A DNA stretch of 64,000 nt, from positions 16,195,501-16,259,500 of the forward strand of contig NC_088308.1 in assembly GCF_910592395.1 (NCBI RefSeq), given 5' to 3'. Shown in pieces: positions 47,701-50,700 of the stretch. The stretch is from Lineus longissimus. Its lineage: Eukaryota > Nemertea > Pilidiophora > Heteronemertea > Lineidae. The notes below the pieces were generated by a model. The model did no database searches, was not told where the DNA came from, and was given only the letters and a program-made list of their open reading frames with translations. Position 1 is the first letter of the stretch, and each line of letters opens with the position of its first letter. The position numbers and the translations under genes are program-made.

Positions 47701-50700
47701 AGCAGGTTTAATTTCGCATTTGCGGTGAAAAATGTAAAAAAACATGAAAAAATGCAAAACGTCTCGTTTTTTGTGGTTAGATGTTCACATGTTAAGAAAT
47801 CTCATTTTATATCCATTAAAACTTTTCTAATTAAACGTAACTGTTATTTAATGGGATATTTGACAGTTTTGTGATTTTGAAGCCCAGTTTCTAGTTTAGT
47901 TAGATTAGAAAAACGGTCCATTTTCCCATCAATGATTTTGTTTTGGCACACATATTTAAGCGCAAAGTGGTGTGAGGTATACCGTTCCAATATTGTTGAA
48001 CACGCAATTTGGCTTAAACCTTACAAACGATAACGATGTGTACATCAATTTTTGAGTCACCTCATGTATATATTGTTGATAGATATAAGGGTAAGATTGG
48101 GGGTGATGGCTCTACCCATGAGACTTGACCGTCGGCAATCCATGCTTCCCATTCTTGTTCATACTTGCATTGTCTCTCATGATAATCCACTCTTCCCCTA
48201 TCTCTTGCCTGAACCTCTTGTTGTGAGTCTCTCTTCTGGCATTCCAATGTTGAATCCCTCCGATACAGAGACCTGACAAACTTCGTCATGATACTCGTGA
48301 CCTTAAGACTTTCGTTAATATCCAACTTCGACCCAAACAGCACGTTTATTGCAGGACGAAAGAACATTGGGAGATTACCACTCTCGAGACTCTTTTCTAA
48401 ATGTTCATACACCATAAGCACCATTTTACCAAGGGACATGTCTGATTTCAGAAACAATTCAACCAGATGCAAGAATATTGTTTTCAATCTGTAGCTAGTG
48501 ACTATCTCACTCACTGCTTTTAATTCACCCTTTTCATTCCTTACTTTGAAGCCGCACACCTCAACCTTTCTTACACATTTTGCTGTGATGAAGACCTCCT
48601 TCACCCTGAAATCCAAATCTGAAATGTGTTCCACTTCTAGAGTTGGGAAGGATAGTCGTCCAAGCTGATTGAGTTCACCTGGTCTAAATTTCTCTGTTAC
48701 CTTCCTGGAACATGTAGCAACTGGGATTTTAGGGACAATATAGTAGTTCTTTTGGCGCATCTCCTCTTTAGACATCCTCCATGTTGATCGCTCACACTGC
48801 CTTGAGTAAAAATTATCATTATCAATCTCAACAGCAGGGACGAAATCTATTGATATTGATAAATCACTGAACAGACCATCAGTATACAGCCAGGTCCATG
48901 TCGTACATGTTTTATGGTCAGGATGTCTCTGCGGTGGTAATGGCATACTGATGCAGCGATCACCATCACAGTGTTTGAGCGTGTCTCTTGATTTACAGTC
49001 ACTCCAGTAAGCCATGAGTCTCCTCCACGTCCACATCCCATATGACCCAATAATGTTCAGTGAATCATTTTCATTCTTCTTTATCTTCCCATACCCTTGG
49101 TATTCGGCCACATCATAGCTAAATGATGTTAAGGTTACCAAGAAATCAAACTCGTCTGGCAAGCCATTCTTTGATTTCTCAAAAGAACTACCACAACCAA
49201 TGACCTCGACTGAAATTCCCTCAGGTATTGCAGCTCTTATTGCTTGCTGAACCTTCATTTTTACATAGCATACAAATGTGTTGTTATCAAATCCTTCAAT
49301 GGTCATCACGGATCCAATGTATGGGTGTTTTGATAGCTTTGATAGATCAGGAACATCAGTGGTATTTGGACAGTATTTTCTCTCTAGATCAGGACCTAAA
49401 TGACTTATGTTAAAAATCTCGATGCCTCTCATCCTATCATCAAGGAATTTAGATATCAAACTGTCTTTTTCACACATATGCAAATAATCATTCGGTGTCC
49501 TATTTTTGTAGTCCTTTATTTGAAAACTCTTCGAGGAAGTGCGTTGTCTTGTCTGCAAAACACCTACTACATCCTCACGTCGATAGATCACAGCATAATG
49601 GAGACAGTTTCTAATATCATTGTCAGTCTGATATGGATCTAATCCATATTCATCAATGAAAAATGTGACAAGATTGCAGTGTCCATAAATCGCAGCATTG
49701 TGAAGAACTGATTTTCCAGTGGAATCCAATGCCTTTACGTCACAACCAAAATGTAAAAGTTGCTTAATTGTCACTTGATTCCCAGTTTCCATAGCACAAT
49801 GAAGCAGACTATATCCGAAATCATCTTTGAGATTCACATTGATTCCTGAATATGATAAAAAACACTCAATATGTTCACTACAACCAAGGCGCACAGCTGT
49901 ATCGAGTAAAGTTCTGTTGTATTTACCACAAGTGTTGTAAAGAGATTGAATAGAACAAAAATCTGTACTAGCTTCAAGTAATAAGGAATGTAATGTAAAC
50001 AGTTCCTCTGGGTCTGCATAGTTTGTTAGTTCCTTAAGTGTTTCTGCGTGACCTCCCTGAACTGCCAGAAAGAGTGGTATTAAACCGATGTTATTCTTAA
50101 GTTTCACATCAGCATTGTGTGAAACAAGCTCTTTGACGGTCTGTGAATGCCCTCGCCAAGCTGATTTATGCAAGGGTGTCTCATTCCGCAGGTCCATTGC
50201 ATCAACATCAGCCCCGGCATTTATCAATAACTTGACAATGTCAAAATAACCCCCTTCTGCTGATTTATGCAGTGGCGTGCACTTCAAACTGTTCTTTGCA
50301 TTTACATCCGCTGCAGCATTTATCAATACTTGTACAGTGCCTAAATGACCCCCCTCTGCGGATTTGTGCAAGGGTGTATCATTGTAATCGTTCTTTGCTT
50401 CAACATTTGCCCCTTTGTTGATTAACACCTTTACAGTCTGAGAACTACCCTCTGCTGCTGCTTCATGTAAGTGTGCCATTGTCCATGGAAGCCACTGTTT
50501 GACTTGATATGCATCTATATCAACCTCAGTCTTTTCTATTCACCATGCAGGTCCAGTTTCACCTATGGCGGTGTTGAGAGATGAAAAAAAAGTAGTTAAA
50601 ATAGCCATCGATTTCATTGTGGGATCATAGTCTAAAGGCCAACACTAGCTTTTACTCCCAGAGCAATAGGATGGGACAGCAGGGGCGGCTTAATCTAGTT

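Follow-up and report, generated by a model that had tools for sequence, protein, structure and literature searches.

Can an animal enzyme of the cGAS type be set off by a protein instead of a nucleic acid? The question is raised by a gene of the ribbon worm Lineus longissimus, located in a 64,000-nucleotide stretch of contig NC_088308.1 (assembly GCF_910592395.1, positions 16,195,501 to 16,259,500) that we refer to as the window. The gene lies on the minus strand at 48062-50479 and represents a single open frame of 805 amino acids, in which an array of ankyrin repeats is joined to a nucleotidyltransferase domain of the cGAS/Mab-21 type. On the strength of its sequence and of structural models, we consider at about even confidence that it may encode a cGAS-like synthase of a signal molecule that carries its own protein-docking sensor, or in other words an ankyrin-gated nucleotide synthase.

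The frame itself is well founded. It reads through 805 codons without a stop or frameshift, and it is no chance opening, because randomised versions of the window, 100 in number and made with a first-order Markov model, contain no stop-free stretch longer than 245 codons. The start ATG has an A at -3 and a G at +4, and upstream in the same frame a stop occurs at 20 codons, with no further ATG before it. By eye, a candidate splice acceptor of an intron in the 5' untranslated region (UTR) ends at 50563, which would leave 50480-50562 (minus strand) as the untranslated start of the first coding exon. The start context, the upstream in-frame stop and the plausible acceptor together lead us to read the coding part as a single exon. 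An earlier annotation, made by a model from the letters of the DNA (the first-pass annotation), had proposed one frame joining ankyrin repeats to a Mab-21/cGAS-type domain, and Pfam, profile and fold searches agree with it.

The enzyme domain occupies residues 379-745 (48245-49345, minus strand; all features of the gene are on this strand), as delimited by profile and fold searches. Pfam describes the Mab-21 superfamily by two models, PF03281 and PF20266. The window protein exceeds the cut-off of Mab-21_C (25.7 against 24.1 bits), which is also matched at an expectation value (E) of up to 1 by six of the seven enzyme domains of the family described below. The Mab-21 nucleotidyltransferase model gives 16.7 bits with the full length and 19.1 with the domain alone, at a cut-off of 24.1. 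A profile search of the PDB matches Cv-cGLR1 (PDB 8gjw), a cGAS-like receptor (cGLR) of the oyster Crassostrea virginica, at E 3e-10, with the alignment spanning positions 50-346. Identity to Cv-cGLR1 is about 18%, and its solved part comprises residues 288-631, which leaves it with a further N-terminal region. The full-length AlphaFold2 model is good in the ankyrin part and mostly poor in the enzyme part, with the predicted local confidence score (pLDDT) below 50 across much of 364-644. The fold search from that model was informative on ankyrins only, and the enzyme domain was therefore folded again alone. The resulting model contains the nucleotidyltransferase core that the first-pass annotation had expected and finds a strong fold match, the first 50 rows of the fold search being cGAS and one cGLR.

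The catalytic motifs lie exactly where the first-pass annotation had put them. These are the GSS activation-loop motif at residues 430-432 (49184-49192), preceded by C429 (49193-49195), the first two metal-site acids in E443-F-D445 (49145-49153), and the third acid, D545 (48845-48847). In the profile alignment these acids fall upon those of cGAS and of Cv-cGLR1, in line with the metal site that had been suggested. A family motif, HPxxxxC, runs from H519 to C525 (48905-48925) just ahead of the strand bearing the third acid, with the His in nine and the Cys in all ten rows of the enzyme alignment. The predicted fold of the domain is that of a cGAS nucleotidyltransferase, and the three metal-site acids and the GS loop are present. 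The zinc thumb, which the earlier reading had not seen, is indeed missing, as no His-Cys cluster of this kind appears in the profile alignments to pig cGAS. Vertebrate cGAS differs from the window protein in possessing this thumb, and also in its disordered N-terminus, where the window protein carries the ankyrin array. The C-terminal tail, residues 746-805 (48065-48244), is mostly one long predicted helix and is poorly conserved.

The ankyrin part is matched by Pfam Ank_2 at E 6.7e-51. In the full-length model, residues 2-347 form ten pairs of helices, including a degenerate one, and a short cap; the first-pass annotation, which is right about the array, had put the count at about nine repeats. 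Five regular helix pairs form the distal repeats, residues 1-155 (50015-50479), followed by the degenerate unit at residues 156-185 (49925-50014), whose helices are modelled at 157-169 and 172-176. Four further helix pairs with the short cap, residues 186-347 (49439-49924), adjoin the enzyme and show few alignment gaps family-wide.

The family was drawn from a search with the enzyme part against 5.8 billion proteins, in which 2565 candidates were scored and six relatives were found. Four of these are named, all from Lineus longissimus, under the labels ankyrin-1-like, ankyrin-3-like, uncharacterized LOC135503293 and PP6 regulatory ankyrin repeat subunit B-like (partial). They share the architecture of the window protein, and their enzyme domains are 50-59% identical to its own. 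Because three of the four carry ankyrin-only names, surveys based on annotation would miss them. A profile search adds P0008 and P0009, both enzyme sequence only, and the distant P0010; a search from this outlier, limited in its scoring to the 8000 candidates with the most words in common, retrieved P0010 alone. The window protein itself is absent from the records that the first and the profile search retrieved. All seven members whose sequence extends ahead of the enzyme, among them the window protein and P0005, which is labelled partial, have ankyrin repeats in that part; the gene models of the relatives were used as deposited. The restriction to nemerteans is the family as seen and no proven limit, because animal proteins may be scarce in the database.

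Across this family the metal site is kept, with E443 and D445 in nine of nine alignment rows with letters and D545 in nine of ten. The Cys before GS is present in all eight family rows with letters (P0010 has Val), and H519, C525 and C642 are each conserved in nine of nine family rows, the Cys at 525 also in P0010. From this pattern, C429, H519, C525 and C642 could make up a site for metal binding or redox chemistry. The acids are conserved while the linker and the C-terminal tail are poorly conserved, which points to selection on the metal site.

The ankyrin repeats behave differently at the two ends of the array. Averaged over pairs of members, identity comes to 29% in the distal repeats (15 pairs), a soft value given the uncertain alignment register there, to 45% in the enzyme-adjoining repeats and to 51% in the enzyme (21 pairs each). 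The distal array varies in length from 61 to 675 residues. Comparing the distal array with itself at an offset of 33 residues gives an identity of 0.68 in both P0002 and P0005 and of 0.38 in the window protein, then 0.15 in P0003, 0.13 in P0006 and 0.07 in P0007, with P0004 too short to measure; in the enzyme-adjoining repeats it is 0.06-0.18. These values suggest that the distal arrays of two members, and perhaps that of the window protein, expanded internally and recently, and that the constant repeats form a unit with the enzyme.

Charge bears on the trigger as well. In cGLRs, nucleic-acid sensors have an isoelectric point (pI) above 8.5, and the acidic ones are proposed to answer something else, which the parts of the paper drawn on here leave unnamed (PMC9980059). 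The window protein has a pI of 6.31 as a whole and of 8.54-8.66 in its enzyme domain, the range reflecting differences between pI programs. The enzyme-domain pI exceeds 8.5 in two of the seven ankyrin-bearing members and in three of the ten rows of the enzyme alignment, one of these rows being a piece, while all seven members as deposited have a pI of 5.6-7.0.

How, then, does the family stand to the receptors already described? The published definition of a cGLR (PMC9980059) combines a G[S/G] activation loop in the form hydrophobic-[QT]-G-S, a [DE]h[DE]h pair 8-20 residues after GS, a further 50-90 residues before a third acid in the form h[DE]h, predicted structural homology to known cGLRs, and the making of a cyclic nucleotide in response to a ligand. 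The window protein has the loop as GSS at 430-432, with GS in nine of nine alignment rows with letters, the acid pair as E-F-D-F, at a gap of 11 residues from GS in all seven members, the third acid as I-D545-F, and the homology in its predicted fold. Two elements of the motif depart from the definition, as Cys (C429) replaces Q/T and 99 residues precede the third acid (96-117 across the seven). The second departure is only marginal, because the spacing in human cGAS is itself about 91. Owing to these two elements the family is filed, from its sequences, as a cGLR-like variant within the cGAS/Mab-21 superfamily rather than as a cGLR in the strict sense, although a looser selection text in the same source asks for G[S/G] alone (PMC9980059). 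That the family would work in the manner of a cGLR is a separate claim, and likelier than formal membership. The candidate ankyrin-cGLR of the first-pass annotation thus keeps its cGAS-type domain with the metal acids in place and loses those two motif elements.

The ankyrin-cGAS architecture is already known, since ankyrin-bearing cGLRs are in print, for example the fusions of the coral Stylophora pistillata (PMC9980059). There, 87% of cGLRs are without an added domain and some carry ankyrin or TPR modules, for which protein or ligand interaction is suggested. The earlier view of such forms as poorly characterised therefore needs amending, as they had been reported, though no activity is given for them in the parts of PMC9980059 used here. 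Compared by description, this family shares with them a cGAS-type enzyme and ankyrin repeats, and differs in its Cys-Gly-Ser-Ser and wider acid spacing. Our literature search found no description of a divergent Cys-Gly-Ser-Ser ankyrin subfamily, and no paper joining a cGAS-like receptor with nemerteans or cGAS-STING with Lineus. Origins outside animals were also considered and set aside. Pattern matches in viral contigs numbered 75, none of them a confirmed relative, and a library of viral structures gave one match below 0.001, to a protein of a Hyperionvirus that is 10% identical. On the prokaryotic side, nine NCBIfam matches (MzaA and eight models of bacterial Dot/Icm effectors) all fall in the ankyrin part far under their cut-offs and are taken as ankyrin cross-matches, and the enzyme domain matches none of the PADLOC families of bacterial defence nucleotidyltransferases at E up to 0.1.

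In the mechanism that we propose for an ankyrin-gated synthase, the distal array would bind a protein, either of a pathogen or a host factor carrying one. The constant repeats would relay this binding to the enzyme through a conformational change or clustering, the enzyme would make a cyclic di- or oligonucleotide from nucleoside triphosphates, and a STING-type receptor would read that product. Protein binding, relay and cyclic-nucleotide synthesis are proposed from the variability of the array, the non-basic domains and the published pI pattern (PMC9980059). Catalysis is favoured because the metal site is conserved, and a non-nucleic-acid trigger because the array is variable and the enzyme domain of most members is non-basic. 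The first-pass annotation had likewise thought of the ankyrin part as a protein trigger, and the variable array and mostly non-basic enzyme domains lend some help to this inference.

Several points weigh against this mechanism. The Foldseek template modelling (TM) scores are moderate, 0.53-0.68 at 15-20% identity among the matches listed, and the window protein's own enzyme domain is basic, as is the piece P0009 (9.29). Internal homogeneity is missing in three of the six measurable distal arrays (0.07-0.15), and the distal repeats may diverge simply from lost constraint or alignment misregister. P0007 has Asn at the position of the third catalytic acid (its residue 658), and this member is possibly a decoy or a receptor devoid of catalysis; the two departures from the published motif count here as well. 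Finally, what is shown is the predicted fold and the residue conservation, and the protein trigger, the product and the STING-type receptor are inferred.

The basic domain of the window protein keeps alive the idea of a nucleic-acid-sensing cGAS-like enzyme, in which a basic surface would bind dsRNA or dsDNA and the ankyrin array would merely localise the enzyme or link it to partners. Its closest characterised relative, Cv-cGLR1, is activated by dsDNA (PMC9980059), and its own domain pI is 8.5-8.7; we nevertheless hold this idea to be rather unlikely, given that so few members or rows exceed 8.5 and that the pI of all seven sequences as deposited stays at 5.6-7.0. The absent zinc thumb speaks in the same direction, even as other cGLRs also function without one. 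The enzyme could alternatively be catalytically silent or dispensable and serve as an adaptor. An invertebrate precedent exists in shrimp LvMab21-1/2/3, likened here by description, which as invertebrate Mab21 proteins act in antiviral immunity and, in the parts of the source relied on, make no cyclic GMP-AMP (cGAMP) and activate IKK-epsilon by direct binding (PMC12928593). This immune role without cGAMP synthesis also tells against the proposed synthase, and the Asn of P0007 and the Cys in place of Q/T before GS fit an adaptor. The near-complete conservation of the three acids beside a poorly conserved linker and tail makes it improbable that catalysis was given up, and an ankyrin-gated synthase stays our preferred reading.

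Pfam names both halves of the enzyme Mab-21, which would suit a member of the developmental MAB21L group that acquired an ankyrin array and has no immune role. MAB21L1 chains are present in the PDB, and none so named appears among the 42 profile matches up to E 10; the sole Mab-21-named match, the Mab-21 domain-containing protein 7lt2, stands at E 0.026 as against the 3e-10 of Cv-cGLR1. The leading fold rows, all cGAS apart from one cGLR, and the strong variation among paralogues, which would be unlike a developmental gene, leave this group with the slenderest of chances. The placement apart from developmental Mab-21 proteins, a check named in the first-pass annotation, is thereby partly supported, through profile and fold scores. 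It is also very unlikely that the gene is a decaying or retrotransposed copy, an intronless frame between two direct young repeats of 1.1 kb, even with a single-exon coding frame and flanking repeats 97.7% identical. The intact 805 codons, the conserved positions and the good start context argue otherwise, and the flanking pair is unremarkable because four copies of the repeat lie in the window.

In the wider surroundings, the young interspersed repeat of about 1.1 kb has copies at 1735-2876, 8182-9286, 44664-45802 and 51717-52864, which are 96.5-98.1% identical and contain a CGT/ACG run as well as internal units roughly 300 bases long. The two direct copies that bracket the ankyrin-enzyme gene could allow its duplication through unequal crossing-over. 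On the plus strand, 58202-63214 is a G+C-richer block of long overlapping frames, with a Pfam RVT_1 reverse transcriptase (E 3.5e-20) in 60297-62615 and a third frame that resembles a tyrosine recombinase by eye and has no Pfam match; the block is perhaps a DIRS-type retrotransposon. Tandem repeats at 57151-57626, up to 94% alike over 224 bases, lie just before it. The Pfam scan took in the gene and nine more of the 42 stop-to-stop frames of at least 100 codons in the window. No second host gene was recognised in the scanned frames, which intron-split genes could escape, and a 320-codon stop-to-stop frame at 29874-30836 (plus strand) gave zero Pfam matches. The window has no tRNA and no Rfam match at the gathering threshold.

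Known active cGLRs respond to nucleic acids or to unidentified ligands. The conserved acids, constant enzyme and variable docking array of this family offer clear constructs for testing protein-triggered cyclic-nucleotide alarms in animals. It is a tentative and somewhat doubtful thought that the fast-changing ankyrin arrays act as a modular protein sensor, through which a cyclic-nucleotide alarm in ribbon worms would be raised by proteins of pathogens and not by nucleic acids. If true, the family would represent a convergent animal counterpart of repeat-based intracellular receptors such as the plant NLRs, with a second messenger as its output.
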